From Neofusicoccum parvum (taxonomy: Eukaryota; Ascomycota; Dothideomycetes; Botryosphaeriales; Botryosphaeriaceae): a stretch of 64,000 nt of DNA. Of the stretch, positions 23,100 through 44,377 are shown piece by piece. The stretch covers positions 1 to 64,000 of the forward strand of contig CP087212.1 of the NCBI GenBank assembly GCA_020912385.1. Direction: 5' to 3'. Position numbers and translations under genes: made by a program. How positions within the stretch are numbered: position 1 is the stretch's first letter; every line of letters starts with the position of its first letter. Below the pieces are notes generated by a model. That model saw nothing but the letters and a program-made list of their open reading frames with translations. It searched no databases and was not told the origin of the DNA.

Positions 23100-24255
23100 C
23101 CTGAGGTTGAGCCCTGACATTATTCTTCAATTGTTAAGAGCCTTATATGGCCTTAAGTAATCCCCTACTCTCTGGAGCAATCATCTCTCAGTAACGCTTC
23201 AAAAACTCGGACTCTCACCCGTACCAGGAGTCAATTACCTTTTCGCCAATAAGTTCATGCTCCTATTCTTCTATGTGGATGACATTGCAGTCATCTATGC
23301 AAAGCAGAACGAGCACAAAGTGGATAAACTCCAACGCAGACTCCAAGACACTTATTAACTCCGCATTCTTAGTGAACTCGAGTGGTTCCTTACAATCAGG
23401 ATCATTAGAGACAGACCCTAAAGAAAGCTTTGGCTTTGTCAGGATTCCTATATTGAGAAGATTACAGCCAAGTTCAATATTTAAGGAAAGCTCCCACTAA
23501 CGCCTCTTCCAGTTGAGGACCTCCAGGCCTCCCAGGATCAAGCCTTAGCATAGGATATTCACACCTACTAATAGAAGATTGGGTTAATCAACTTCGCAGC
23601 AGTCGTCACGCGTCCAGACATTATACAAGCAGCCTCAAGGCTTGTAGAATACCTACAGAACCCCTCTTAAAGACACTAACAGCTCGCTACACGGGTCATT
23701 CAGTACCTTTTAGTAACCAAGTACCTTGCAATCGAGTTCAATGCTCTATAGACGGAACCAAAGAACATCTTCTTAGCCTACAGCGATGCCTCATTTGCAA
23801 ATGACCTAGACACAAGAAGATCCGCCCAAGGCTACGTCTTTCAGCTCTTTAGTGGCCCCATTGACTGGAAAGCAAGCAAGCAGAAGACTGTCACTACCTC
23901 AAGCACTGAAGCCGAGTTTCTCTCCCTATTAACCACAGCAAAGGAGCTTCTATGGTGGGAAAGACTCTTTCAGCATATACGCTTCAATCTAGACCATCAC
24001 TTGTTTATACAATGTGATAACAGGCAAACAATACGCCTCCTTGACGAATCCACACCTAAGCTTACCACCAAGTTGCGCCATGTGGATATCCATCAGCACT
24101 GGCTCCGCCAGGAAGTCAAAACCAAGCGTATCAGACTTCAGTGGACTCCCTCAGCTGAAATGGTAGTAGATGGCTTCACCAAGCCTCTTCCCCCTCAAAG
24201 ATTCAAGCAATTTGTCAAGCAATTGAACCTTACAGATATCAGAGAGCTCATTTAG
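23100..24255 (+). pseudogene. Ty1/Copia pol 3' fragment (RT end and RNase H)
   Basis: A plus-strand frame with Copia signatures: LRALYGLK (about 23135), FYVDDIAVIYAK (about 23267) and RNase H segments SDASFANDLDTRRSAQGY, SSTEAEFLSL, VDIHQHWLRQEV and DGFTKPLPPQRF. It has several TAG/TAA stops and ends in a normal TAG at 24253. The 5' two thirds of the element are missing; the Gypsy LTR abuts it. Confidence 0.88.
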
Positions 24256-25523: not shown

Positions 25524-26584
25524 GATGTCTTGTTCCCTAAAGCCTGAGGTACTATGACAAGCTCTGTGGCAATCTTTTATACGTGCCTGCATTCGTAGCT
25601 GCAGAAAGCCTGGATAGAGCCCGTATGTGGGGTCGTCATAGTGTATTGCTGACTGAGGCTGACCATCAGCACTAGTCGCACACCAAAGACAGGGGTTCTT
25701 GTGTTGTTCGGCACAGCGCAACGGCAAAGATGTGAGTCAGAAGGCACGTGATTCTCCAATCGCCATTGTTAAACAGAGTAACGGCGTCGCTGGTTGCATG
25801 TCAACAGGTGAAAACGGTGGTTGAAACAGTCGCCCATCTCGCCATCGATACAACGACGAAGCGCCGTCGGGAAGAAGGCAAACCACACCATCACAGCACG
25901 TGGCAGCCGGGAAGAGATGCGAGCTGCCTTCCCCCACGCTGCTCGAACGCTGCGGCGGCCAACGGCCGGTCGGCAGCTGCGAACCGTGATTGCACGGCTT
26001 TAGTGACACGAGGGGCGCCGTTTCTTTGGCTCCGGGGCTTGCTACTGCGTTGGGAGAAGTTGTGGTTCAGGCGCCCGTGGAGCCTGGAAGTGAGGGCGTG
26101 CGCGGCGTGCGGGATGGCTGCGGGGGAAAGGGGGGGCTGGGGCACGGAGCTTGGTGTGGTGGGATTGGTAATGAGGACTGCTGGCCTAAGAGACTGTTTG
26201 CGGCAGGCGGTGTGGGTGGGAGAGAGAGAGACCGGAGGCGCGGTATGGTGGAGCGGGTCGGTTACGGAACTGGAGGGGTGGACTGCGGGCCCGTGGCAAG
26301 CTGACGCCTGGACGGTCACCGTTCTCCAGCTCCGGCGCGAGATCGGGCTGTCACGTGGTGGTTGGGCAGCGTAGGAAGCAGCGAAGCCATCGCCAACGCA
26401 GGGAAGGGCATTCCATGCTCGCCTCGTACGCGATGACGAGAGCAGAGTGTCGTGGGAGGATTAGTTGACGATCCAGACCTGGCTGCCGTTTTGACGTCCA
26501 ACTTAGACGGACGAGTAAGAATCGCATGGCAGGCACGTATACGGGCGTCGCCGAGGCATCAAGGCTTGATGTTTGACACATTGC
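25524..26584. other. Intergenic, GC-rich, no supported gene
   Basis: Several overlapping open frames occur on both strands because the segment is GC-rich, with G-rich runs near 26110-26280. None shows a domain, splice-consistent extension or a plausible start. This is the space between the methyltransferase fragment and the 3' end of the four-exon gene. I see no repeat signature. Confidence 0.5.
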
Positions 26585-27871
26585 TTAATATGTTCCCCGA
26601 TGGAGATTTTCTTGGTATTGCTGAGCTTCCTGGGAACCGTGCCACTGCATAGAAACAGGCCATCCTCCGCTCATTCCCGAATCACCCATCGGAAAAAGAT
26701 ACTCGTAGTCGAGCTGCTGCTGCTGCAACATTGGCGTGAGAGATGTATTTTGAGAATTCCGTGGTTCCAAGGGCTGCTCTTCAGTAGTAGGCCGCCGTAA
26801 ATCGCGTATAGCAGGCACTTGCGGATACGGGGTAGTTGCGAAAGCTGTAAATTCTTAATGCCTCTGCAGATATCTCGGCAGGATTATTTCAAAACGCACC
26901 AGGTGGCTGACCTGTCTCCGCTATTCCATCATCTATTAGTATGTGCAAACGTTTTCGTCCGCGATGTTCTTCGTTTCCTTCGGCATTCTCCTCGAATAAA
27001 CCTAATCTCTTCTCTCTTTGGTTGTAGCCTGCTGCAGCCAAATGAGCAGAGTTCTTGTGCGCGTGGGGTTGGTAAGTTGAGTGTATCGACGCCAACTGGG
27101 AATAGTGTTCTGGGTGAACGTCGTTTGGAAAGTCTACAGATCACAACGAGCCTCATATTAGAAACCGACTACTGGAAACACTTGTCTAGGAAATGGCTTT
27201 GATGCATACTGTCGTAGTTTGGCACCTGCTGTTTCTTCGGCCGTGCATATGAATCCTCGAGCCAGGACAATTCATCATTGATTCCTTTCGGGTTATGTTA
27301 GCGTCTTAAACAATTCGGTAAAAGGATTCATACCATTTTCCAATTTCTGATCCATCTGATATTGATCGTTTGTTTTGTGTCTGTATGAATTTTGTGCAAC
27401 TTCTCTTTTCATCTTTATGAGCAACTTCGCCGGGAGAGGTTTGATGTCGTCAAGGTTCTGCTCAGCCCAAGACCAGAAAAGATCCATCTGAGCTTTCCCG
27501 CCAATATTTCGCGTTTCATTCCACTCTTTATTTCTGAAAGACGCCATGACAAAAAGAATGACTCTACAAGGTACCGTCAGCGGCGGAGGTGACTCTCTTA
27601 ATTCCTCGAGGATCATGATATTCCTCAAGGGACGGTAAGACTCATTCCTGAGGTAGGATTCATTGGCGTATTTCTTTTTCCATGTCAGGGTCTTTTCCTT
27701 GAGCATTTCGAATGCCTTCACACTCTCAATGATTCCTCCTAGTTCCCTCATTGCGTGAATTAAGTTATCTCGCTGTTCGTCTGAAAGCTTGAGCACATGA
27801 AGTCGTTCCGCAGTGTTATATCCTTCGAACTTTTGACCTTTCCAGGCTAAGGCTAATGAGGTGGGATCCAT
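26585..27871 (-). CDS. Unknown protein, four exons, 368 aa
   Basis: Exons: 27871-27334, 27284-27210, 27133-26900, 26844-26585. Introns are 49, 76 and 55 nt with GTATGA/AAAG, GTATGC/GTAG and GTGCGT/ACAG ends; CTAAC and CTAAT branch-like words lie in the first two. Phases agree at all three junctions and the product ends at TAA 26587-26585. The N-terminal half is a helical, charged domain (starting MDPTSLALAWKG) with KKKYANES and the hydrophobic block PCRVILFVMASF. The C-terminal half is Gln/Pro/His-rich and disordered-looking, with MLQQQQLDYEYLFPMG near the end, like an activation tail. I do not recognise the family; a DNA- or protein-binding regulator is possible. No RIP-type stops are present. 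Confidence 0.8.
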
Positions 27872-28976
27872 CGCGACGAAAGGAAGGTCTAGAAAGATTG
27901 ATGGAAAATGGGATCAATCATGTCTGTCATCTGTTATTGGATAGTATATTAGCTGAGTCATTCATTCTGGGACGTCTTGGGGATCAACACCACGAGCACC
28001 AGTAATCAAGACAATCAAGTCATTTATTCATCGATTCCGACCGAATGAAAACGAAAATAGGGCGCGACGGAAGAAAGCTTACTCGAACGTGTTTCGCAGC
28101 GCTGACCCCTTATCTATCTGGCAGGTGCTCTAGGCTGCCAAGCGCCTAGGTAACCGCTTATCACTAGTTCCGTGTCTGACTCATATTGCGCTCTGAACAG
28201 TCTGTGTGATAAACAGTGCGTTCTTTAGACAATCTGTTCAACCGACATTGCGTCATTCCGACAGCCTGTTCCATTGATTGTCTTAGGAGTCCAAGGCAGT
28301 GTGTCACGCCACCCCGCTTTGAGCGGTTGAATACCATATTCACCGACGATCATGCTCTTGCCAGGTATCCTGCCATAGTCTCCATAAGCGCAAACGTCTC
28401 TAGGAAACACCAACAATACTACAAAAAGTCTAGCTATATTAGGCTATAGCCCTCCTCCGGCAAGCACCGAAGGATCTCTTTAGATTGTGAACTCTCGATT
28501 AGTCAGTCGGACGGACTCTTCTTTACATGTCGGAGAATGATTGCAGGGATAAGCTATACCCGCTTTTTAAAAGATGGCTGTGCATCCAGGCCTACTAAAG
28601 ATGTTAATCAGTTACATGACTAGTGGGCTACTTAATTAATATGCAAAAATATCACGGGATGCGGGCCAAAGGAAGTGTTTACACATGATTATTAGCTTTT
28701 ACACCTCTAGTACATGCGGTGTCTTATACCTTACTCGAGTAATATAGATGTAACTTCGAACCACGCGTAGAAGGATATTATACTAAGCGTAGATCTCGCG
28801 CCGAGCTAATAATATATCTACGTAAAGGTATATTACGGGAATCGTAACAGTAGAGGCAAGAAGTATACGACAATAGACGATAACAAAAGGCACTAGTAGT
28901 TCGTACGGAGCTTAGAATAGCCAATGTATTATACATTCAAACAGAGTCTATGAGATATAAAGAAAAATAGCATGTA
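27872..28976. other. Intergenic, partly AT-rich
   Basis: 27,872-28,450 has ordinary composition and would hold the promoter of the minus-strand unknown gene. 28,600-28,976 is AT-rich with TATATA/TACGT words resembling mutated repeat, and contains the 3' flank of the isomerase gene. No gene, LTR or inverted repeat is recognisable. Confidence 0.5.
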
Positions 28977-29765
28977 CTAAATATCCCCTTGTCCAATACT
29001 CCCTCCGGGATGGTTCTTACGGAATCTTGAATCGGCGGTCACGCCTGCAATCCAATCTATTACTGTGAGACACAGCATGTCTCCTACAGCCATGGCGACT
29101 ATGGTAGAAGTAGTGGGAGTTGATATCCCAAAACAGTCCTTCTCCGTCTTTGGAATTGGTGCAGGAACAAGAATAGAATCAGGCCGTGCCCTCAACAGGC
29201 AATTGGGTGCTGCCGTTTGAGATGTGATGATGATCACATTGATATCCGCGATATGAGGCATCAGACAAATGAGCTCGGGAGTTCTCCCTGAGTACGTGTA
29301 GATAACCACGCAGTCATTCTGTTGTTGCTATTAGCATTTTGCTTCCTCTGATTTCAGAAGTCCATACCGGGCGAACATCACCAATATCCCCATGCAAAGC
29401 CTCAGACGCATGCAGGAATGAGGAAGAAATTCCGACACTCCTGAATGTTGCCGCTGCTTTCATCCCCACTAAACCGCTTTTACCGATGCCGCAGAAAACA
29501 ACCTTTCCGCCTGCCTCGTGCGTGGTAACTATTTGTGCGACCGCACGTCCAAAGCCATCTCTCGCGTCATTGTCTGTTCGATAGGTCTGTGCAAGTTGCT
29601 GAAGTGCGGCTGCTTCGGTATCTAGGACAAGTTGTCCGCGTTCATGCACTTTCTCCCAAAATCCCTTCTCTTGTACAATAGATACCGTAGTATGATCCCC
29701 TTGCGCGAAGTCGTCAGCTCTGCCGCGGGGTAAGAATATATGGGCTGTTCACCTTGACATTCCAT
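28977..29765 (-). CDS. D-arabinose-5-phosphate isomerase-like SIS protein (KpsF/GutQ family)
   Basis: Interconverts D-ribulose-5-phosphate and D-arabinose-5-phosphate in characterised KpsF/GutQ/KdsD proteins. Exon 29649-29368 and exon 29318-28977 are joined in phase by a 49-nt intron (GTATGG...ACAACAG, branch GCTAAT). Motifs: VVFCGIGKSGLVG (phosphosugar loop), HASEALHGDIGDVRP, TYSGRTPEL (SIS S-G-x-T-x-E), STPTTSTIVAMAVGDML, and FRKNHPGGSIG, which carries the family's conserved His. No CBS domains follow, unlike bacterial enzymes of about 330 aa. The protein matches the family from about 29650; the 5' end is unresolved. The only nearby ATG (29765-29763) is in another frame and would need a further short intron. 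It is divergent from the lactone oxidase gene, sharing a promoter region of about 600 bp. Confidence 0.85.
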
Positions 29766-30349
29766 CGCCGTGTCCTAACGTGTTGTCCCCTTGGATTTGA
29801 ATGATGATTGTCTTATGGACCGTATTGCAGGCTGTTAGATTTATACAAGTGGATCGTAGTTATACGTGTGGTAAGCTATAGAGTACGTATCGCACGCATT
29901 GGAAGTTCAAGCGGGGTCAACCTGATACGAGTGTCTCGGAGAAGTATACCGGAGTGGATAGTGTGGTGTAGAGCGGCTCGTGACCCTAAAACCGCCAAGT
30001 CGGATATATTAACCAAGACTTTATGATCCACCAAAGCGATCGGAGACGCAAATTAGAGAAGTATGAGTGCTTTACAAGTGGTGATTGTTTGAACTCTATG
30101 GATTGTCCCTCTAATGGGCCTGCCCTAAGGGTAGATAGCTAAGGACTCATGGCAGACGCTAAGCTACATTTGGATTTCCTAATTAGACTACTTGCTTGGC
30201 AGTGACTTTCGTCTTTCAACAGTAATTAGTCTAAACCATATTCTAGTTATATATATTTAGTGCTTTCTCGTAAGGCCGCTAATCATTATTCATCTCCCTA
30301 CCCCGATCCTCGTAAGGTCTACCAACGAATCTATTCTTCATAGTCCTAA
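29766..30349. promoter_or_regulatory. Divergent promoter region, isomerase and lactone oxidase
   Basis: About 580 bp between two divergently transcribed genes of the same proposed pathway. A TATATATATTTAG run at about 30247-30259 lies roughly 95 bp before the lactone-oxidase ATG and could be its TATA element. A shared promoter would allow co-regulation. No operator is identified with confidence. Confidence 0.45.
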
Positions 30350-31915
30350 ATGGCCGGCATGGACCTATTCACACGGTCGCAGTACGCGAGTCGGGAGCTT
30401 TCCGAATACGATGCGCTCATCCTCAATGCCTCAAGAAACCACGTTCATTTCACCTGGGCGGGGACATTCTACTCTTACCCAGAGCTGTATTTCCGCCCAA
30501 CAACTCTATCCCAGATCCAGAACATTATCATCTCCGCACGCCGGTACAGGCGTCATGTTGTCGTCGTTGGCTCTGGGCACTCTCCAAGCGACCTGACATG
30601 TACCTCATCTTGGATGGTAAATCTCGACGGGATGAGTGAACTACTCCGGGTTAACGAGGAGAGGGGTACCGTAACGGTTCAGGCAGGAATACGTCTGTTC
30701 GAGTTGAACGCCAAGGCCAAGGAATACGGTCTCACATTGCCGAATCTTGGAAGCGTCAATCACCAGTCCATTGCAGGCGCCATCTCCACCGGAACGCACG
30801 GAAGTTCCTCCCGGCACGGCCTACTATCAGAAGGAGTGCGTAGTCTGAGGCTCGTGCTTGCGGATGGCTCCGTCGCTCGTTGTTCCCCAAGCGAGAACAT
30901 CGATCTCTTTCGTGCTGCGCTCCTCTCCCTAGGAGCACTTGGCATTCTCTTCGAAGTCGAATATCAAATGGTACCACATGGCAACATTCGTTGGAAACAA
31001 ACGGTCAAACCGCTTGACGACATTCTCAGCTTCTGGGATGACGGCCTATGGACCGGTAGAGAGTTCACCCGGATCTGGTGGACCGCATACACTAAGCGTG
31101 CTGTAGTCTGGTCGGCGGATAAGTCAGCAGAGCCCATCCAACAGGCTGCTGGATGGCAGCAGCATCTTGCAAATTATCTGCCGTACCAGCCGCTTCTTTG
31201 GCTTGCAAACTGTCTACCAGCTTTGCTCCCGGCTATCGAATGGGCCTTTTCCGGAGTACGGTACGGTTTCAGAAATAATACTACCATGTCCGGTGTTGAG
31301 CCACAGGATACGGGCCTGCTCATGGACTGTCTTTTCTCGCAATTCGTCAACGAGTGGGCGCTTCCCCTCCGAAAGGGTCCCGAGGCGATCATACGTCTAT
31401 CTGCTTGGATTCACGGGGATGAACGGATCGCCCAAATCCCTTTCCCCAGTACTAACGTATGGATCAACGGCCCGATCGAGGTGCGCATCGTCGATACTTC
31501 GTGTTCAACGTCTAACCGCCCCTTCCTGGACCCGAGTTTCTCCGACGAACCCACGCTATACCTGAACGCAACGCTATTCCGGCCATTCGGATACGACCCG
31601 CCTTTCTATAAGCGTTTCTCCGATGGTTTTGAGTGGTTAATGAAGGATCTTGGCGGACGGCCTCATTGGGCCAAGAATTTCCACAGCATTAATCACGCAG
31701 AGTTGCAGGGGATGTACCGGGGAGACCTGACCAGCTGGCTTGATGCTCGTGCCAAGGCGGATCCTGATGGAATGTTCGTGGGTGAGTGGCACCGCCGCAC
31801 ACTCTTACCACAAATCGACCAGCTACCATATTTACCATTGGAGGAGAGGAAAGCTGAGCGCAATGCTCGAAAGATAGGCGGTCTTAGTTGGTTCGGTGGA
31901 AAGCGCCAGGCGTGA
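30350..31915 (+). CDS. ALO1: D-arabinono-1,4-lactone oxidase
   Basis: 521 aa, intronless, ATG at 30350, TGA at 31913. The yeast enzyme is a mitochondrial outer-membrane FAD oxidase that makes D-erythroascorbate and H2O2 from D-arabinono-1,4-lactone. The VAO/PCMH FAD domain (about residues 30-205) has VVVVGSGHSPSDLTCTSSW, with the His expected to hold covalent FAD, and LGSVNHQSIAGAISTGTHGS. The C-terminal ALO domain ends with GGRPHWAKNFH, matching the family HWAK motif. Length fits fungal ALO proteins (about 525-560). All residues I can check are intact and there are no RIP-type stops, so it is probably functional. Plant and animal relatives (galactono- and gulono-lactone oxidases) are less likely substrates here because Ara2-like and A5P-isomerase genes are neighbours. 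Confidence 0.93.
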   Translation: MAGMDLFTRSQYASRELSEYDALILNASRNHVHFTWAGTFYSYPELYFRPTTLSQIQNIIISARRYRRHVVVVGSGHSPSDLTCTSSWMVNLDGMSELLRVNEERGTVTVQAGIRLFELNAKAKEYGLTLPNLGSVNHQSIAGAISTGTHGSSSRHGLLSEGVRSLRLVLADGSVARCSPSENIDLFRAALLSLGALGILFEVEYQMVPHGNIRWKQTVKPLDDILSFWDDGLWTGREFTRIWWTAYTKRAVVWSADKSAEPIQQAAGWQQHLANYLPYQPLLWLANCLPALLPAIEWAFSGVRYGFRNNTTMSGVEPQDTGLLMDCLFSQFVNEWALPLRKGPEAIIRLSAWIHGDERIAQIPFPSTNVWINGPIEVRIVDTSCSTSNRPFLDPSFSDEPTLYLNATLFRPFGYDPPFYKRFSDGFEWLMKDLGGRPHWAKNFHSINHAELQGMYRGDLTSWLDARAKADPDGMFVGEWHRRTLLPQIDQLPYLPLEERKAERNARKIGGLSWFGGKRQA

Positions 31916-32081
31916 GCTTTGTTATGAATATTGTGTCTTAACTGTCGTCTCAGTTTTCACCTCCGTTTTGCTAGCTAGCCTCAATTCAGCTCACTTCATC
32001 GTGCCGTGGTGTGGTTTCCTACTTCGGCCTGTAATGGCCACTGCAGTGTCTTTTTTTCAATCTATTGTACGAGGATCACTT

Positions 32082-33191
32082 CTATTTTACATAAATATAT
32101 GTCGAGTAAGAAACAATTCCCGCCCCAATTACGTACTACTGCAAGTCAGCCTCGACATTTAGATTTGCGGTAGTTGCTTACCTGTTTCGATATGTGAAAG
32201 TCGAAGAAAATGTTACTGGCGAGGCAGGAGATAAGAATGCTGATACTCGTAGCGAAATTCTTTTCAATGTTATCCGAATACGCGACAACCATTGCGACCA
32301 GAATTCCCCCAACTGCCTGCATCGCGATGGCACCCCACACAGCCAGATTGTAACCCTCGAAGAACCCATATACAGCAATGTTGCGACCATCTTTCACTAG
32401 CATTGTCAAAACTGCAGGGAGCAACGAGAACATTGCCAGTTGAACGTTTCGGATCCAGAGATTTTTTGGACCACAGCCTTCCTTCAGGATTCTTTCAATG
32501 TAGACGCTTGCAAGGCCAGATAAGACGCAGGCAGACAGTACGGCAGCAAACCCAAGGAGCTTATTTCCCTCGCTCTTCCGGGCCAACCCTTCTCTTTTTG
32601 CGTCTTCTGCAGAGTTCAGGACGAGAACAATGCCCGAAACGAGCGATGCGAGGCTACCCCACCTCCGCAGCGTTAACCTCTTACCTAGCAGTATGGTACT
32701 GAATAGCGCCGTCGTGATGATTTTCAGCTGGTAGGTTATTTGGAACGTCGCCGCGTCCAAATTGCTGATCGCAATGTACTGCAACAGATTCTGGAATGTA
32801 TAGAGGATCGCGGCAACCGTCAACTTTCCGCTTGCAGCGTTGAAAACTTCGCCGAGAAATTGTTGCAGCATCTCATCCTTCGTTGAAGTATGTGCGTTTG
32901 AACGAAAATGGCAGATAGCCACAAGTGATGATAGGAGGAGCTTCATGACTTCGTTGAGGAGGACGGCCGTGCTGGTGAAATAACGGTGCGAGCTTGTCAA
33001 GGGCATGACCCGCGAGTAGTGCATCATCTGTCAGTCGGATTAGACGATTGTTGGTTTGAACTCTTACAGAACGTACGTACCAATATAAGAGCAGAGTTTT
33101 GAATTGTCAACTATAAAACTTCTCAGTAATGAGGAGCGGGCAAACAAAAATTGACACTCACCGCAATGAGACACAAAACTCGTGGTGACAT
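32082..33191 (-). CDS. UDP-galactose-type nucleotide-sugar transporter (SLC35A family)
   Basis: Four exons: 33191-33162, 33110-33081, 33027-32182, 32135-32082; introns 51, 53 and 46 nt (GTGAGT/ATAG, GTACGT/ACAG, GTAAGC/GTAG with CTGAC branch), all in phase 0. Product 319 aa with about ten membrane segments. Diagnostic blocks: VLCLIALTIQNSALIL across two junctions, then YSRVMP; NLDAATFQITYQLKIITTAL; SGLASVYIERILK; LWIRNVQLAMFS; SDNIEKNFATSISILIS; last membrane segment VIGAGIVSYSTYIYV. These are typical of SLC35A2/A3 Golgi antiporters for UDP-Gal or UDP-GlcNAc. An in-frame ATG further upstream (33320) exists but the conserved sequence starts at 33191. Genomes already carry housekeeping copies, so an extra subtelomeric one suggests a dedicated role. 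Confidence 0.9.
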
Positions 33192-33471
33192 GATGAAGGT
33201 AGATATAACTGATTCAACGTAACGAAGTGTAGTGTGCCCCATTGGAACACTCTGAGCGCTCGGGATAAAAGCCGTAAAGATATCGAACGTGACAGAATGA
33301 GGTTGAACAGTCATGCACACTGGGGGAAACGGTTGATTTATACGTTTCCTGTTTCACTAATGAAGGATGTGGGCCCGACAGAGCAATGTTACTCAGGGGA
33401 GGGAAAAATTAGCCAGGAAAAGGTAGTGTGGCTATTAGGCCATATAATCTACTTCTGCCGCGGTAAGCAGA

Positions 33472-34722
33472 TCAACCCATACGAGCCGAGGTTCCGCTAT
33501 CACTACTGAGTCTGCTTAGGCTTTCGAGCTCTAAACCGGGACCAGCTACCGACGTAGATGCAGTCCTATCTTTGTCCGTAGCCCTACCACCCACGAAGGC
33601 CAGTCCAGCAATAACACAAATTGTACCAATGACGGAAAAGACAGATATGCTGTACTTCCAAATAAAGATGTCGGGAACTAGCGCCAGAATAGACTGGAAA
33701 TACAACATGTTCACAGCTCTTGGGGATGAATCTAAGGCAAAACCACTGGTTTGAAGTATTTCCTGCAGGTGTTACCGAGTTAGAGCTGAGAATCGCAACA
33801 AACAATGTGAAGATTCAGAGATCTAGACTCTAGGCATACCATTAAAAAGGCCAAGCTTCCAAGCCCTAGAAGCATCGCCCACTGTGCGACTTTCAAATTC
33901 GAAATGAATGGGACGCTCTCAGTCCATACCAAGTAAACGATGGTGGAGATGAAAAGCATGGCATATGCCAGGTAATTCATAATTACCAATGGATGAGCTC
34001 GCGTGCCAATTTTCCGGACGCAGATAATAGTAAGCTAAATTTATTCTCGTAGGCTCGTAAGCTTTCGGTCTTAAAGCGTATCGGAAGAAGCTGTTGCGGG
34101 ACCTTACTGTGCTACCAAGAACACCCACGAGCGTAAATATAACGCCAAAGACCAACTCCGATTGAGAATGCTTGCTCTCGTGCGCTGGTGGATCGAGCAG
34201 TTTTGGGACAAGAATGCAGAGCACACCAAAGAAACAGGCAATGGAGGCATAAAGCTGGCGAGGTAGGAGTTCGGATCCTATAAGCTTACTCGATAATATA
34301 GTGGCGCAAAGCGGAGAGAGAAAGCTGAAGACTGTTGCCTCTACGAGAGGAAGATATATCATTGATGCTATAGTAGTTAGTCTACTTGCTATTCTTTAGC
34401 AGAAGGATCGGGATCGAAAATTTCTCATACCATAAAATCCACCAACTCCAACAACACCGGCAAGAGCTCTACCTAGGAGAAGATAGCGTACGCTAGGATC
34501 ACCAAGGATGAAGTTTGGTACAGATTGTATATGAAGGTAGAGCAAACCCGGTATCAGGGTGATGACCATGCGAGTGGTGATTATTTGCAATGTTGGGAGC
34601 GAGGGAGTCTGCTGCTCCCCTGTCTGGAGAATCTTAGCGAGAGTATGAACAATAACAGCCGGTACTTGAGCGAAAAGCACGAGTAGCCAGCCATAAGTGC
34701 TTAGTGAAGTGGTTGCACCCAT
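33472..34722 (-). CDS. EamA/DMT-superfamily transporter (SLC35G-like)
   Basis: Four exons: 34722-34431, 34367-34108, 34034-33840, 33762-33472; introns 63, 73 and 77 nt (GTATGA/TATAG, GTAAGG/TTTAG, GTATGC/TGCAG), phases consistent, 345 aa. Ten hydrophobic segments in two EamA repeats. Recognisable blocks: TRMVITLIPGLLYLH, IYLPLVEATVFSFLSPL, RKIGTRAHPLVIMNYLAY (restored by intron 2), NMLYFQSILALVPDI. The C-terminal tail is Ser/Glu-rich and cytosolic-looking. Family members export or import small metabolites at the plasma membrane or endomembranes; substrate unknown. It lies tandem to the nucleotide-sugar transporter and divergent from the GH31 gene. Confidence 0.88.
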
Positions 34723-35400
34723 ATTCGTTTTGCTTCAAGAATGAGGAAATGGAAGACGCTACAGGCTAGAGAGATACCATGTTCCTCCTAGATAAACGAC
34801 TTGAACTCTAGAGAGTCATTGTACGACCTACGTGTAGATGGTAAACAAATGGGGCAGCTGCCTAGTTAAGACTCTGTCTTGGCGTCAAGAATAATTCCGG
34901 ACCGCCGGGAGACAGGTTTCACAGCCATGTCTATGCTATCATGACATATTTTTGTGGCAAATCACGATCTAAGACATTTTTAGGCTTCTACGGCCTTTAT
35001 CAACCTTAGATTTCGTCCCCCTACTATAATATATCACGCGTTATTATTTCTCCTCCTGAATTGGGCCTAGTAGCTGCATTTAACCGGAACGTGGAGTTTC
35101 CGTTCCGCCTTAAATCCATATGAGAAGCACTTCTAACAGACCTTTTACTAAGGTCGATATTGGTGAATCATTCGAGCCGTTTAAGAGCCCCACGTACCAA
35201 GTAAACATACGAAAAAAGTCGTAAGATTAATATAAGGCCGCTAAGAGATCGTGTTTAGAATATCTTACTACTATAAAGATAGCGTCTATTATCTGTAACA
35301 CGTGAGCACATGAATTGTAAATATCAACCTTATAAACATAAACTTATGCCCACGTTACCATAGAAGTAGCAAGCTTCCAATTTCATAAGCAGGCAGAGCT
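34723..35400. promoter_or_regulatory. Divergent promoter region, DMT transporter and GH31
   Basis: About 680 bp of AT-rich sequence between divergent genes. TATAAAC at 35331-35337 lies about 65 bp before the GH31 ATG and is a reasonable TATA box. No other regulator site stands out. Confidence 0.45.
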
Positions 35401-38400
35401 ATGAAGTGGCTGAACTTTGTGTCTCTTTTACTTCCACTGTCGAACAACATCCGTAGCCCGAGCGTGGGCTACTCCGACAAAAACCTCTCGGAGTCTCTTC
35501 ACGTTATTAATGGACATGAGCGTCTTCGGATACAGCCTTGGGGCCGAAACTCTATCAGAGTGAGATGCACCCTCTACAGAGATGCAGTCGGAGACGAGCC
35601 TGGAGCCCTCCTTGACAGCCCACTGGTCCAAGGGCCTATGGATGAAGCACGTGTATCGCACACGGTCACTTACTCCAAAAACATGACATTGCGGAATGGT
35701 CTTCTCGAGGTCACAGTATCCAAAAATAGACTGAAGTTCTGGCGGATAATGGACGATGAGCAAGAACTACTTTTTGAGGAATCATGGCCTAAGGTAACTG
35801 TAAAAGATGCATGGACAATGGCGAAGTGCGACGAACTGATTGGCAAAAGCATGGCAAATTAGCCCGGGACTGGTCGTACGACTATTCCGGAGTTACATCT
35901 AGACCTTCCGCTACCTTTTCCTTCACCACAGATCCAGGAGAATCCATCTTCGGTCTAGGTCAACATCAAGATGGGGCCTTAAATCGGAAAGGCTTGTCAG
36001 TGACCTGACATCAAAGATTGAATAACGGTGCGTTACTAAAAGAATTAGAACCTTCGAGTTTAGGCACTACCAGTCGGAGACAACAATCCCTTTTTATTTG
36101 TCCTCCAAAGCATACGGATTTGTATGGAATGTTCCAAGTATGGGCCACGTTAGCGTAGGTGTTACGGCACAGCCTCCATGAGGTGAGGAAGTTGGGGGAT
36201 TGCCCCGCAGTAGGCGAAGAACACAAAGAGATGTGGGTCAAGAGTCACGTGACTCCCGCGATCAGCTAGGACCCACCCGCTCAGTAACTGAGCCGGCGGT
36301 CTTAACTGAGCCACCCGCTCAGTTGGAGCCAGGCGCTCAGGGCGTGAGCATCACCAACTCACTGAGCGTATAGATTGATAGAACTTTCCTACAGTATATA
36401 AACTACACTCCTTAGTATAGCTTTGACCTTCGTGGTCAACTTCAATAATCAATCTACACCATTGATTAGTAACACGGCCTTCGCACGCAGTGCTCAGTCA
36501 CGTGTATTCGTTCACACTTGTTCTCTCCCCCTACCTTGTACCCACTCAAGGTAAACCCTACACGGCTTACCACCCTCTTTGGTGTTTGATCCTTGGAGGC
36601 AGAGGCCCGCCGTTACAGTAGGGAACAACGTCATCCGGTGGATGGCTGAAGCCACTCTAGTGATAGACTATGGTATGTGCATCCACTATAATTAGCGCTA
36701 TAGACTAACGGTGAGGGATGGAGTCGTTTTCACCGCACCGCCGAGCGATTTCAACTCCTTGATTGATACCTACACCTCCATCACTGGAAGACCGCCTACT
36801 CTTCCATATCATGCTCGGGGATATATCCAGTCCAAGACACGATACTTGAATCAAGAAGAAGTGATGCGCGTAGCAGAAGGATTTAAAAAGCATGGTATAC
36901 CTGTGTCAATGATCCAGATAGGTAGGGGCTAATAAGACGCACTTAAGACCTTAGGGCTAAATTCAAGTACAGATGCCCCCCATTGGGCTGCCTTTGGCGA
37001 CTTCACGTTCGACCCTGAAAAGTTCCCTGACCCGGCTGGACTGGTAAAAGCTGTCGCTCATTTAACAGGAGGGGCTCAGATCATTGCCAGCGTGTGGCCT
37101 CTGATGGAAAGAAAGTCAGTCAACTGGCTTGATGCTCTATCCTTTGGTCTCCTCGCTGGCTCTCCTCAAGGACTAGGCGTGGTAGAATTTTTCAACGACA
37201 CATTCATGCACCTCATCGACCACACTAATCCCATGGCTCGAGAATTCACCTGGAATCGGCTTCATTCTAGCTACCATAGCATCGGGATACAGAACTTTCT
37301 GATTGATTGTGTAGAAGGGGGCGGTGTAGGAGAGGTATGTCCAGAGTAGAGTGCCGATAGTTCAAAGCTAATAGTAGCACGGCTCGGCAGGGCTTTTCAT
37401 TCAAGTCCAGCACAGCGTATCCTCTGCAAGGCGTTCCATACCCTCGCCCGAATCTCATCTATTCGATCGGCTCTCAGGCCGAAATCGGTGCACTTTATCC
37501 ATTTTATGCCCAAAAGATGATCAATGATGGGCTAATCGCCTCTGGACCGTCCTACAAATCCGGCGGAGCGATGCAGGGGCTGTCTTTCTCTCGAAGCGCA
37601 TGGCTCGGGTCTCAACGATTCTCTAGTGTTCTGTGGAACGGAGACGTTGATGGCAGTTGGCAAGCATTTCGCGCCCAAGTAGTTGCCGGACTTAGCGCTC
37701 AGGTAAATCGTAGCCGGGACATATGACCTCACGATCGCAGAGACTGATGTTATCTTCCGTAGTTGTCCGGGATCGCGTGGTGGGCATCTGACATCGGCGG
37801 CTACTACGCTAACAGCGACTACCACGGTAACATCTCCGATCTGCATTATCAAGAGCTTTATGTCCGTTGGTTTCAATATGGGACGTAAGTGCGACTTCCT
37901 TTCGAGAAGCAATTGACGATCAAAAGCTAGACAGTTCTTGTAGGTTTTCCCCAATCATGAGAGCTCACGGGCGCCGTACGTGCCTCCCAGAAGACCAAGA
38001 CGGGTTTGAGTCCTGCCCGAATGAGCCCTGGTCGTTTGGAAACTCCACATTCACACATCTGAAAGAATTTATTCGACTCCGATACACGTTAGACGCGTAC
38101 ATTGCGGCCTTATTTACAGAGGCTGCCAAGTACGGAACGCCACTTCAGAGACCCCTCTTCTTTGACTTCGGAGAGAAAGATCCATACACATTGCACCATG
38201 CCGAGAATCTAAGATACGAGTTCATGTTTGGACCGAGGCTACTAGTAGCTCCGGTCACGGATCCGAATCCTATAACATGGACCGTGTATCTCCCGAAAGA
38301 TACTTCAGGCGTGCTATCGGATATGAATGGGCCTATTCCCTATGGTTTGACTTGGAGAGACTGGTGGACGGACGAGATCTTCCTCGGTGGGACTTTTGTT

Positions 38401-38478
38401 ACAGTGGAGGCTGATTTGGGTAGGATTCCTCTTTTCTACAGAGGGAAGAAAAGCGACATCATGAAGGGCAGGCTGTAG
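35401..38478 (+). pseudogene. GH31 alpha-glycosidase, split by a solo LTR
   Basis: Eight exons: 35401-35793, 35850-35999, 36059-36159 plus 36623-36672 (one exon cut by the LTR), 36724-36921, 36973-37334, 37391-37702, 37763-37884, 37944-38478. All phases agree once 36160-36622 is skipped, giving 740 codons. The acceptor at 36058 is the least certain. GH31 marks: FGLGQHQDGALNRKG, SSKAYGFVWNVPSMG, RPPTLPYHARGYIQSKTRY, SVWPLMERKSVNW, nucleophile Asp in NFLIDCVEGG (family usually FWID), acid/base Asp in LWNGDVDGSW, then WWASDIGGYY. GH31 enzymes cleave or transfer alpha-xylosyl, alpha-glucosyl and related groups. MKWLNFVSLLLPL may be a signal peptide. No other lesion is visible, so inactivation is recent. 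Confidence 0.85.
36160..36617 (+). repeat. Solo LTR inside the GH31 gene, 5-bp target duplication
   Basis: 458 bp, TGTTACGGCA...CGCCGTTACA, flanked by GTAGG at 36155-36159 and 36618-36622. It is the same family as the LTR at 15032 (R-U5 nearly identical; U3 of the GAGC/CTCAG type; CACGTG at 36246-36251). A TATATAAAC core promoter faces right. It arose by insertion of a full element and LTR-LTR recombination. Confidence 0.95.
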
Positions 38479-38690
38479 TCTGGTCTCAATCAGCATTTGA
38501 TGGATAATAAGCTCAAACACCTTCCTTATGGTATTGGATAAGTCTATACGTGTAGTCATTCATTCTAAGAGTCTGAACACTATTAGATCTAGGAGAAATA
38601 AGCAGTCAAGCTACTCGTTTATCGATTCCGACTAATCAAGCGCAAAATTCCATCATCGACTGAGTAGAGATACAAAATGCTGAGGCTCTC
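38479..38690. terminator. Convergent 3' region of GH31 and Ara2-like genes
   Basis: About 210 bp between the stop codons of convergent genes; both transcripts must terminate here. It is AT-rich, with GAATGAATGACT-type words and no recognisable gene. Confidence 0.4.
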
Positions 38691-39878
38691 TTACTCCCTC
38701 CTGCGTTGGTCAAGGTAACCTCCGTCCGGACTATCCCAGGTGTAGTTGACCCATTCACCAAGGATTTCCTGGATGCCCTCCGCTAGTAGTTCAACTGCAC
38801 GATTGCGGATCAAACTCCATTCATGCTCTCGCTTCCAACGCCTTGCATGGTCGGCAAGTCTTTGCCCGTTCTCTAACCCATCTAGAATGCTGTGCCACAC
38901 CATGATCAACTCCTTGAGTTCCGCGAGTTCACTAACACCTACGACAGAAACACCAAGCCTCTGGCTATATCTGTTACATTCCCCTTGTACGCCAGACGCC
39001 AACTCGCCAAGTGAACCAACTGGAGCTCCTAAACGAAGCCAGTTCTCGAGCGCGAAGTGTACCGCGACGGACTCAAGCTTTTCTTCATATGTAGAGCAAA
39101 ATTCATGAGCCCGATGCACTGCCTCGCGTAATTCTTTAGAGGATGGAGGAGCATCAACCCTGCTCCCAAAAGGCATACCATTGTGACGTAGTAGACTCAT
39201 GCCAAGTAGACTAGCATTAGATACGACATCAACGCCGGCAGCTACCATCCTCCGGACGCTCGCAGGAAGTGTGGTGTTTTGGAGTGTGAAATTGGCATGA
39301 CTCATAATGAAGTCCAGTGGCTCACCAGTATCACGTAGCACGCGCTCGGCTAGCCGACATAGCCTTTCAGTAGGATAGCCTGAGATTCCGACGTGCTTGA
39401 CAGTTCTCTCCTCCTCGCGGATGTATCGTAGTTCGCGTATGGCGATGACGATTTCCTCGTCTGTTGCGAACTCGACGTCCTGGCAGCACACAACGTCTAG
39501 GTATGGTGTCTGTAGCCGGCGCAGACTGCGAGCCACAGAGCACCGTAGCCAGCCTGGGCTAAAATCGAACTCTGTGCCAACGATCCGGCCGACCTTCGTA
39601 AGGAGAAAATATTCTTCGCGTGGAAACTTCGCACGCACAAACGGCGTCGAAAGCGCCTGGCCGAGTAATGACTCAGATGGCCCGTAGTAAGGTGAGGTAT
39701 CGAAGGCGCGGATGCCGGCTTCAAGGGCGGAGGTTACTAGGCCGATAGTGTCGTGAGGGTAGGGGTTTTTGCTATCCTCATGGCTAACTGCCGCAGTCCC
39801 AAGGATAAGCGGCGGAAGAACGGATGATAGAAGCGTTATAGGTGCCATCATGGATTGTAAGAGGAAGATATCGGACAC
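38691..39878 (-). CDS. ARA2: D-arabinose 1-dehydrogenase-like aldo-keto reductase (Ara2 type)
   Basis: 395 aa, intronless. Ara2-type enzymes oxidise D-arabinose with NAD+ to D-arabinono-1,4-lactone, the substrate of the lactone oxidase seven kilobases away. Family blocks: VLPPLILGTAAV; GIRAFDTSPYYGPSE (catalytic Asp and Tyr); YFLLTKVGRI (Lys); RSLRRLQTPYLDVV; VKHVGISGYPTERL; MSHANFTLQNT; VDVVSNASLLGMSLLRHNGMPFGS. The tetrad His position, in the strand after YLDVV, reads CCQDVEF, with Gln in place of the usual His. Homologs start near ...PLSSVLPPL, so the Met at 39851 or 39848 is as likely as 39878. It is convergent with GH31. No nonsense codons. Confidence 0.88.
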   Translation of the reverse strand: MSDIFLLQSMMAPITLLSSVLPPLILGTAAVSHEDSKNPYPHDTIGLVTSALEAGIRAFDTSPYYGPSESLLGQALSTPFVRAKFPREEYFLLTKVGRIVGTEFDFSPGWLRCSVARSLRRLQTPYLDVVCCQDVEFATDEEIVIAIRELRYIREEERTVKHVGISGYPTERLCRLAERVLRDTGEPLDFIMSHANFTLQNTTLPASVRRMVAAGVDVVSNASLLGMSLLRHNGMPFGSRVDAPPSSKELREAVHRAHEFCSTYEEKLESVAVHFALENWLRLGAPVGSLGELASGVQGECNRYSQRLGVSVVGVSELAELKELIMVWHSILDGLENGQRLADHARRWKREHEWSLIRNRAVELLAEGIQEILGEWVNYTWDSPDGGYLDQRRRE

Positions 39879-40556: not shown

Positions 40557-42610
40557 TTTTATAGAATATAGATAGATAGATAAATTCATTTTCTTCCCGA
40601 TATAGCTCCCTTTCGGGTCCATGCGGGGTAGGCTATCTGCGATATTTTACATGAGAGGGAAAACCTGGTCTCCCAGGTGAAAAACCCCTCCTTTCTTCTT
40701 GGGTTGGTTGCCCCTTCATATTCCGTTTTTCCTGCTTACCGGTAGAAGCTACTATAGCAGCCTTACATTAGCTAGGTGTTAACCTTAGCTCTCTCTTTCT
40801 CCCATGTCCTGGTGCTGGTCCTCCTGGTCAAGATCCTGGTTCTCCTGGTAGTTCTCCTGGTGGACCTCCTTAGCCTCCTGGTCCATCTCTCTTGCCAGAC
40901 TAAATTGGTTTAGCAGCCCTAGGTGTAGAAACCACTTTGTTGCTGCTTGGACCCCTTTCTTTATTGACAGAAGGGTGTGGTAGTCTGTGGTTTCTGCTAG
41001 TTGTAGCATCTGTGCTCTGCCTTCTTGGAAGTATGGGTAGAATAGGAGGATGTGCTTTAGTATTTATCTATGCTAGCTACATAGGTAGGCTGGGCTAGGG
41101 TGGCCTGGTACCTTACGCCTGGAGAGAAAGTCTTCAAGGCTAATATATTTAGTGCGTAGCAGGGTGAGGAGAGTGCTTTATAGTTTAGTAAGTTTACTGT
41201 GGAGCTGCCTAATTTTTAGATTCTAGGATATACTCTAGGCTACTAGCTTGTTTCTCCTCTCCTATTTAGTTTGCTTTATTTACCTCTCCTTCTATAGCTC
41301 TCTAATTGCTGTACGAAGCCTAGTTTACTCTGGGAATTTTTAACTTGCAGGGGGGTAGCTACTAAGGAGGGAGTCTAGTTTTCTCTCTAGTAGTATTCTC
41401 CTAGATGGGCTAGAAGCTCCCTTAGTATTTAGTGTGGCCCTAGTAATCATCTTAATATCCCTGTATATATTCTTAACTATTATAGCTACCGGTCTCTTTT
41501 TACTTCTAATTGTATATACTAGTGTAAGCTCATCTAAGTAAAGTAAGAGGGGGGTAATCTTAGTCTTATACTCTAGTATTTGGATAGGTGTTGACTTATA
41601 TACTTTAGAGATAGCACGTAGGCACTAGCTTTGGATTTTTTCTAGGGGTTTAGCTGCTGTCTTTCTTACTCCTAGGGTTCCTTCTAGGGAGTGCCACACC
41701 CTATAGCTATAGGTGAGAACTAGTCTTACTACTATAGTGTAGATGTAGCGTGCCTTTATAAAGGAGGCTCCCTAGGTAGATACTATAAGTCTAGAGAGAG
41801 AGGTGTATTATCTTATTACCTTAGTAGTAGTCTCCCTAATATGGGGTCCCTACCTAAGCTTACTGTCTACATGGATGCTAAGTATCTTAATCTATGGTTT
41901 AGGGTTGCCCTTAAAGCTAGGGATTTGAATCCTGGCCTTTATATTGAATCTTTGTGGCCTTCTGGTGAAGTGAATAAGGTGGTACTTATCTAAGGAGAAT
42001 ATAGAGCCATGGGTGGCTGCCTACTACTTATAAGTATTATTAGCCTCCTCTAGTGCTCTATAGTTTTGTTCTATTGACCTACTGAAGGTAAGAATATTAG
42101 TGTTATCTATAAAGCCTAAGGGGAAGGTACTTCCCCTTTTTAGCTCCGTAAGGAGGTTGGAGGCAAAGTAGAGGTAGAGGATTAGTAAGAGCGAGGATCC
42201 CTAGGGGATCCTAGTTGTGACGATTCAGACCGTCAACTTCTCTTTCTCTAGGTAAGAAGGGAGTGCCGGCGCCGAGACCTTCGGCAGGTCGATGGAAACG
42301 GGCAGAAGGACCTGTAGAAAACTAAGCCTAATCGGGCTAAGGCACTTTTCTAAGACAAAGATGTCTAAGACACGGGGTTTGCTAAGAGCAAACGCTTAGC
42401 GAAAACGCACTAGAGAGGGAAGCCTAAGACCGGCTATTTGACTGTCTGGATATATAAGTCCTTCTCTTCTCTTCTTTATTCTTTTTTCCTTTCTCTTTCT
42501 TTTCTCTAGCTTAGAAACTTTAGTCAATTTCGAGAATCTAACTTGTTCTTCTTGAGTCGTGACACTAGTGGGGATTAAGATCTGTAGGCTGATGTAGCCG
42601 TTAGGGTTCT
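40557..42610 (-). mobile_element. 5'-truncated LINE copy, heavily mutated, interrupted by a solo LTR
   Basis: 3' UTR (TAGATAGATAGATAAATTCAT, CGGGTCCATGCGGGG) and ORF2 C-terminus match the LINE at 57839-62900. The copy runs from the 3' end up to the RT region (GFIDNTNIL-like, about 42100; the GYISLQILIPTRIP-stop-GSS equivalent of GYTSQAISTPTGIPQGSS near 42570-42600). It stops at about 42610, a normal 5' truncation. TAG/TAA codons are dense. The solo LTR 42216-42564 sits inside it. Confidence 0.8.
42216..42564. repeat. Solo LTR of a second family, target duplication CTAGT
   Basis: 349 bp beginning TGTGACGATTC and ending GAGTCGTGACA, flanked by CTAGT on both sides (42211-42215, 42565-42569). 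The interior has ordinary base composition, a pyrimidine-rich stretch and a TATATAAG core. The LINE reading frame resumes after it, so it inserted into the LINE. It is unrelated to the TGTTACGGCG LTR family. Confidence 0.88.
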
Positions 42611-44377
42611 CTAGTACTAGTAGATTCTATCTAGTAGTCTATAATACCTAACTAGGTAATCTAGTACTATTATCTTATAGTTTACTACCTAGTAATAGGA
42701 AGGATAAATATTACCTAAATTAGGCTTAGCTTTAGCTAGGCTAAACTACTTATCTTTTTACTTACTACTAGTTCTTATTTAGTTACTTATTAGTCTAATT
42801 TTAGTACTAGAGTTCCTATAGAGGTCGTTATTAGTTCTTCTACTCTAGGTAGGAGTCTAGCGCTACTATATTCTATAATACTAATACTAGTTCCTATATT
42901 AGCCGAGTATATCCTTTCTATTTAACTTAATACTATAGCTAGCGCCTTTATTAACCTAGTCTTTTTACTATTCTCTTACTTAGGATTACCTCTATTACCT
43001 ATTTATTCTAGCCGTCTACTTAGACTAGTAGGAATTAATAGTCGTCCTATACTTAACTTAGTAGTAGGTCTATTCCTACTAGTTAGAGGAGGTCTATATA
43101 GAAGATATTATATACTACTCTAGAGATATCTAGTTTATAGTTATAAGATCTAACTATCTTAATAATAGTAAATTTTACTACTTTATTATCGAGTTTCTTA
43201 CTTAGCCTATCTATCTTTAGGTTCTATAGATAAAGCTAAATCTTATTACCTACTTTATATATAGGTAAAGGATTTCTTTACTAGTTAGCTTACCTCTCTT
43301 ATTCCTATTAAGTCTCTACTATAGATATCTACGCCTAGTCTATAATTTCTTTAATTTTAGCTATAATTACCTCTACTCTTACTACTAAGGAGTCCCTATA
43401 GGGGTTATTAGGTTAAATATCCTTAAGTAGTTCTAGTAGCTTAAGATAAAACCTATAGGAGAGAAAAAAGAGACTTATTTAAGTCGTTATTAACGTTCTT
43501 CTATTAAGGGCTAACTAAATAACTAGTAACTAGTCTATCTAGTCTTACTAGTAGTAATCTATAAATAATACGAGTTTTCTTACTACTTTAGTATTTATTC
43601 TTTCTATTAATCCATCCGTTTAGGAGTAATAGGCTATTAAGATACGTCTCTTAATCTTAAATAGTTAATAAATACGTTACTAAAGAAGGCTTATAAATTA
43701 TATTCCTCTATTAGATATAATTACTCCTAGAATACTATAATTCTAGTAGAAGTATCTAATAAATAGCCTTATAATAGTTTCTATTTTAGTATTTAGGTAG
43801 GCCTTAAGGATTACTCCTTTTCCTAGGTAGTTAGTTATTACTATAAGTATTTTATAACTATTACTAGATAGTAGCGGCCTAGTAAAGTTAATAGAGATCT
43901 CTCTCTATTAATAGCTTAGTACTAGTAACGGCTTAAATAGTCTTTACTTTCTATTCCTCTAGACCTTAGTCCTTTTATAGACGTTATAGTTCTAGTAGAA
44001 CCTCTAAATATTATTAATAAATCCTAGCTAGAAGAAATACCTTACTATAAGAGAGATTATTTAGATACGTCTAGGATATACTAAGAGAGGAGAGTTATAT
44101 ATCTCTTAAATAATTCTTATTTATAGTAGCTTAGAGTCTAGTACCTATTTCCTACCCCTAAAGAGGAGGCTCCCTTAATTATCTAGTAAGTACTCGGTAA
44201 TTAAGACCTTAAACTTTATAGTAAACTCTAGTAGGAATATTCTTTTCTCTTACTATACTACTTCTCTAAGTTACCTTAAAACTTAGTCCTATTAAAGTAC
44301 CTCTTACTATTAATCCTCTAGAGAAGGAGGTTCTTATACTTATTATCCTAGTCGTACTTATTAAGGTTTAATTACTA

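Follow-up and report, generated by a model that had tools for sequence, protein, structure and literature searches.

Does a group of six genes near a chromosome end of Neofusicoccum parvum build D-erythroascorbate? The question was raised by a KpsF-like isomerase, an Ara2-like aldo-keto reductase (AKR) and an ALO1-like oxidase lying together with two transporters and a GH31 glycosidase, and the original prediction was that such a cluster builds the whole pathway from the pentose phosphate pool. As it stands, a working and complete erythroascorbate cluster is unlikely. We lean, with slightly less than even confidence, to an accessory cluster formed from old duplicates of erythroascorbate genes, which was long under selection and is now partly decayed or re-purposed. 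The main rival to this reading is chance assembly.

Genomic setting and gene order

N. parvum is a fungus of the grapevine-trunk-disease type. The window, that is the whole stretch of DNA analysed, is the first 64 kb of the 2.54-Mb contig C7, in a genome of 44 Mb and 18 contigs. Contig C7 opens with telomere repeats, (CCCTAA)n, read in the sequence at positions 1 to about 120 (plus strand), which bears out the predicted subtelomeric position. The six-gene island spans 11 kb and lies about 29 kb from the telomere, and all six genes were found at the predicted place and in the predicted order.

The first gene encodes a KpsF/GutQ-like sugar-phosphate isomerase with a single SIS domain (28977..29748, minus strand), assigned from its PF01380 and TIGR00393 scores. 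It is followed by an intronless gene for an ALO1-like D-arabinono-1,4-lactone oxidase of 521 aa (30350..31915, plus strand; 61% to the native copy on C4), a nucleotide-sugar transporter gene (Nuc_sug_transp, PF04142; 32082..33191, minus strand) with four inferred exons and an open frame of 319 aa, and an EamA-type transporter gene (33472..34722, minus strand) with three inferred introns and an open frame of 345 aa. The last two are a multi-exon gene for a GH31 family glycosidase (35401..38478, plus strand), with a solo LTR inside, and an intronless gene for the Ara2-like AKR of 395 aa (38691..39878, minus strand; 66% to the native copy on C6). Intron positions were inferred from splice signals and frame continuity. 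From the KpsF side to the AKR side the intergenic gaps are 601, 166, 280, 678 and 212 bp, and KpsF/ALO and EamA/GH31 are divergent pairs. Both the identities given to these genes beforehand and their clustering are supported.

The recognised frames in the flanks carry transposon or helicase domains only, including reverse transcriptase frames at 12.4-14.0 and 58.2-60.6 kb and a Tc5/pogo-like transposase at 44.5-46.2 kb of the window. Frames up to 104 kb look transposon-like as well, judged by eye only beyond 64 kb; two of these frames were checked, and neither matched Pfam. There were also zero Pfam matches for several flanking frames, including 27293-27913 (minus strand), which adjoins the island, 23752-24255 and 25736-26374. 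The claim that no unrelated gene is present is thus right for the recognised frames and less secure for those with no Pfam match. Near the telomere, Helicase_C and DEAD-domain frames at 4084-5556 resemble telomere-linked helicase genes.

Metabolic gene clusters occur in fungal subtelomeres. The island resembles them in that its genes adjoin one another, share a theme and lie near transposons at the end of a chromosome, but it is made of duplicated primary-metabolism genes, and no backbone synthase, regulator or transferase was recognised in it. Pfam gave no match to a glycosyltransferase or phosphatase family in any of the six genes.

Extra copies and native counterparts

Copies were counted by six-frame searches of the fungus's own genome. 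Three matches in all came from the ALO search (the window copy, a close match on C4, a distant one on C8), four from the AKR search (the window copy, 66% on C6, 43% on C15 and, on C11, a weak match), and two from the KpsF search with the first exon as query (the window copy and C11). The native copies on C4, C6 and C11 are unlinked. It had been recognised from the start that the prediction would suffer if the island held the only ALO1 and ARA2 of the species; this is not the case. For the nucleotide-sugar transporter one gene was found besides the window, in two pieces on C5, and searches with one exon as query gave weaker relatives of GH31 on C3 and C1 and a weak relative of EamA on C2. Because native pathway genes sit on three contigs, and relatives of the transporters and GH31 on C5, C2 and C3, the set was assembled and not copied as a block. 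Segmental duplication of a native block is ruled out, since native ALO1, ARA2 and KpsF sit on three other contigs.

The native ALO on C4 is 100% identical over 579 aa to a Neofusicoccum parvum protein and 99.1% to an N. ribis protein; judged by this single gene, the host is N. parvum or something very closely related. The match on C8 (C8:1864971) was rejected as ALO1; it is a distant member of the family, with 22% over 186 positions versus native ALO, and it carries an HWTKN motif.

Age and selection

Over aligned codons, amino-acid identity to the native copy is about 60% for ALO, 66% for AKR, 42% for KpsF and 55% for the nucleotide-sugar transporter. In these four genes pS between window and native copy is 0.72-0.80, at or near saturation, and pN is 0.20-0.40. 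Because the silent sites are near saturation, the window copies are old duplicates.

In a neutral model the native sequence was mutated with the observed spectrum until its second-position divergence equalled that observed (300 runs per gene). The model covers point changes only in the same four genes, and starts KpsF from the native gene, which is perhaps not the true sister. The runs had on average 10.8 stops in ALO, 7.3 in AKR, 5.5 in KpsF and 6.7 in the nucleotide-sugar transporter. For each gene 0 of 300 runs were free of stops, and the real frames hold no internal stop. Together with pN far below pS, this argues for a coding function long kept in the four genes, which speaks to the past and not to present function. 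The neutral runs rule out, for ALO, AKR, KpsF and the nucleotide-sugar transporter, that the island consists of pseudogenes throughout.

Repeat-induced point mutation was ruled out as the cause of divergence, since substitutions are concentrated at third positions and TA/AT is low in the gene block, 0.69-1.13 across the 1-kb steps between 28 and 40 kb (twelve in all), versus 2.02-2.25 at 41-44 kb. The latter stretch (41000-44000), near the unmarked island, is AT-rich and carries a strong signature of repeat-induced point mutation, with (CA+TG)/(AC+GT) of 0.68, 0.37 and 0.01.

The kept frames weigh against incidental gathering, in which the subtelomere collects stray, unrelated duplicates, the pathway theme is coincidental and the copies are slowly dying. 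We hold this to be a serious possibility, though a somewhat improbable one. It fits with the transposon-rich surroundings, the copies' long terminal branches and their changes at near-invariant positions, the interrupted GH31 and the loss of the catalytic His of AKR, all described below. Its chance was estimated by rough arithmetic, taking about 11,500 genes (a number of the size given for D. sapinea in PMC12693491), six duplicates, a pathway of three or four genes and a guessed 100,000 pathway-by-island chances. With KpsF uncounted, two erythroascorbate genes would fall among six randomly drawn duplicates with a rough chance of about 0.1, which is in its favour; with KpsF counted in the pathway the rough chance is about 1 in 10,000, which speaks against it.

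Phylogenetic position

Trees were built from chosen subsets of the listed proteins (45 of 120 for ALO, 48 of 120 for AKR and 35 of 120 for KpsF) plus the window and native rows. The end branch of the window copy is 1.46 changes per column in the AKR tree, versus 0.05 for the native gene, 1.71 in the ALO tree, versus a median of 0.28, and 2.54 in the KpsF tree, versus a median of 0.2. The AKR nests in Botryosphaeriales, to which we take the species so named in the trees to belong, and three nested nodes there carry starred support (97/92, 100/94 and 96/86); its exact node is weak (90/6), and the tree program flags long rows as unsure of place. For ALO, there was no rejection (p-AU 0.434) of a tree that groups 15 native rows, mainly Botryosphaeriales, and leaves the window copy outside, and the nearest rows by path are Neofusicoccum. 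The window KpsF falls apart from the native one, and its grouping with Botryosphaeriales is disfavoured, not rejected (p-AU 0.07). ALO and KpsF are not firmly placed by these trees.

The unfixed place of ALO and the separate place of KpsF would agree with an arrival by transfer or introgression, the donor being a lineage outside the sample, instead of duplication within Botryosphaeriaceae. We consider such an origin very unlikely: the AKR lies inside Botryosphaeriales, flagged long row and weak exact node notwithstanding, and Neofusicoccum rows are the nearest to ALO.

Among the matches listed, from capped candidate sets for ALO and AKR, no relative of the window copies was closer than 61% (ALO), 66% (AKR) and 57% (KpsF), which gives no evidence of the cluster elsewhere. 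In the same way, the closest among the matches listed were 91% for native AKR and 68-78% for native KpsF. N. parvum's own native copies are missing there too, so that not finding the window copies tells little about whether other isolates have them.

Catalytic residues of the pathway enzymes

The ALO1-like oxidase has profile scores of 222.4 bits (cut-off 23.1) and 113.9 bits (cut-off 26.4), and 395.6 bits with TIGR01678, just under the cut-off of 396.8. It keeps His77, Gly134, Glu377, Arg379 and Lys442, with identical letters in 121 of 121 relatives; His77 we take to be the FAD-linking residue. It departs from its relatives at 17 of 151 columns conserved at 97% or more (median relative 1, highest 6); such column sets, here and below, were built from the relatives nearest to the query, which shapes them. 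The Arg and Lys were equated by motif with Arg388 and Lys456, whose roles in the ALO family, like that of position 113, are treated in PMC11099136. In a PDB alignment Gly134 falls at position 113, where dehydrogenase-type enzymes carry Ala (PMC11099136). The window ALO keeps the important residues of its family.

The AKR scores 132.6 bits with the aldo-keto reductase model PF00248 (cut-off 24). From the catalytic tetrad Asp-Tyr-Lys-His (PMC8695856) it keeps Asp60, Tyr65 and Lys95, and Gln133 replaces the His that is found in 122 of 122 aligned relatives and at the same position of the nearest solved chain, 8k1i. It also departs at 22 of 148 columns conserved at 97% or more (median relative 1, highest 12). 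With the catalytic His gone, the reaction would be lost or changed, and the reductase step could fall to the native Ara2-like gene on C6. No AKR relatives were found in viral contigs in one scan with AKR as the sole query.

The KpsF-like frame has no convincing ATG and is open once an inferred 49-bp intron (29367-29319) is removed. It scores 39.5 bits with PF01380 (SIS; cut-off 25) and 113.1 bits with TIGR00393 (cut-off 203.7), the latter match spanning model positions 1-151 of 268; the name KpsF-like is used because this score is under the cut-off, as is that of the native copy (119.9 bits). The frame keeps Lys, Glu, Asp and His residues shared by all 33 other aligned proteins (29 of the matches listed, three bacterial proteins and the native copy), and presumably these are the catalytic K59, E111, D168 and H193 of KdsD. 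It departs at 15 of 79 columns conserved at 95% or more in 30 relatives. Solved phosphosugar isomerases are matched by it, 5uqi with E 3.2e-25, 3etn with 5.9e-23 and 2xhz with 2.5e-19, one of which bears the name arabinose 5-phosphate isomerase; we take 5uqi and 3etn to be arabinose-5-phosphate isomerases without CBS domains and 2xhz to be KdsD. The likeness to these bacterial enzymes consists of the match itself, the four residues and the single SIS domain, whereas the window gene, a putative isomerase, is fungal, bears an intron and stays below the TIGR00393 cut-off.

Glycosidase, transporters and promoters

The GH31 gene is interrupted by a solo LTR of 458 bp (36160..36617, plus strand) with a GTAGG target duplication. 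Other apparent stops in GH31 and in the EamA gene coincide with inferable introns, and the solo LTR is the sole clear lesion. At least ten other full-length identical copies of it, and an eleventh nearly identical, are among the 44 matches listed, a lower bound because 40 of 233 candidates were scored. Four pairs of copies are each separated by 7,531 bp, the arrangement expected for the two ends of a complete element. The identical full-length copies and these pairs indicate that the insertion into GH31 is recent. The LTR family, found in the window and on contigs C1, C2, C5, C6, C10 and C18, belongs to a recently active retrotransposon.

Glycosylated erythroascorbate is reported in fungi (PMC8782026), and such glycosides would give the sugar transporter and GH31 a task.

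A 12-base word, TTAGCGGCCTTA, occurs at 30271-30282 and 35233-35244, once in each divergent promoter, and three times in the 44 Mb. As a shared promoter signal it does not go beyond chance: 35 of 200 shuffles give such a match too.

Does the cluster build erythroascorbate?

Compared with the yeast and fungal D-erythroascorbate pathway (ARA1/ARA2, ALO1), the window has enzymes for both of the last two steps, an AKR of the ARA2 type and an oxidase of the ALO1 type; the difference is that the window copies are extra, clustered, subtelomeric and much diverged, with an AKR lacking the His, while the native genes are unlinked. No description of an erythroascorbate gene cluster was found among the open-licence PMC papers listed. 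For Trichoderma, the enzymes of D-erythroascorbic acid synthesis are treated in Additional file 13 of PMC6560777.

Gene content and order, the catalytic residues kept in ALO and KpsF, and Gly134 of ALO, which aligns with a position where dehydrogenase-type enzymes have Ala (PMC11099136), would suit an intact D-erythroascorbate cluster that works and draws on the pentose phosphate pool. We find such a cluster quite unlikely, since the AKR has Gln for His, GH31 is interrupted and native unlinked genes already serve these steps. At least two of the six genes carry damage or have lost a catalytic residue, and with the broken near-invariant positions of AKR, ALO and KpsF the claim that the cluster builds the whole pathway is not supported.

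The accessory cluster that we prefer may have arisen when separate duplicates of ALO1, ARA2 and the KpsF-like isomerase gathered with two transporters and GH31 in a transposon-rich subtelomere, where they would have been held long under selection while changing fast. The reason for selection was most likely the making or processing of a D-arabinose-derived lactone or an erythroascorbate-like compound, and the probable direction would be from ribulose-5-P to arabinose-5-P, arabinose, arabinonolactone and an erythroascorbate-like product. In this scheme the genes would have worked jointly, and the transporters and glycosidase may have played a part. Today the cluster is altered, its reductase lacking the catalytic His and its GH31 recently interrupted. 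In favour of this reading are the three genes of one proposed route within 11 kb, the assembly of the set from separate contigs, the pS and pN values with the kept frames, the retained residues of ALO and KpsF, and a gene block free of the signature of repeat-induced point mutation. Against it stand the Gln133 of the AKR, the many changed near-invariant positions, the interrupted GH31, the unclear start of KpsF, the TIGR01678 and TIGR00393 scores under their cut-offs, the chance level of the promoter word and the lack of closer relatives among the matches listed. Independently of the pathway, duplicates of otherwise unlinked primary-metabolism genes have come together here at the end of a chromosome, and they show signs of selection and strongly elevated rates.

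Source of D-arabinose in fungi

In the window a KpsF-like gene lies together with the genes for the last two pathway steps, which hints at a source of fungal D-arabinose. PMC11301363 calls the D-arabinose route in eukaryotes unknown; there, eukaryotes are described in 2024 as without obvious homologs of bacterial arabinose-5-phosphate isomerases, and GFAT (glutamine:fructose-6-P aminotransferase) is proposed to convert ribulose-5-P to arabinose-5-P. The isomerase used there as positive control comes from "fragilis", with Bacteroides in the legend and Bacillus in the table (PMC11301363). The step is the same as the one considered here; in the GFAT route an aminotransferase does it, and here the candidate is a KpsF-like isomerase.

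At least 25 of the best 120 of 425 KpsF matches have fungal names. Those listed are mostly Dothideomycetes, plus Lithohypha, Teloschistes and Metschnikowia. Judged by sequence, these fungal proteins are homologs of bacterial arabinose-5-phosphate isomerase, which makes the source of fungal D-arabinose a testable question. Among the open-licence PMC papers listed we found no tested function of any fungal KpsF. An unlikely extension would be that fungi own a dedicated KpsF-like arabinose-5-phosphate isomerase that feeds D-arabinose into erythroascorbate, and that the island is a specialised second pathway, put together from duplicates of this isomerase, Ara2 and Alo1, in which the reaction of the Gln-bearing reductase is changed and the product modified, possibly glycosylated.

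The native KpsF gene (C11:1881959-1883653) lies on a 2.3-Mb contig of the same genome, which speaks against contamination, and it adjoins an open frame named by eye as FAD-monooxygenase-like.
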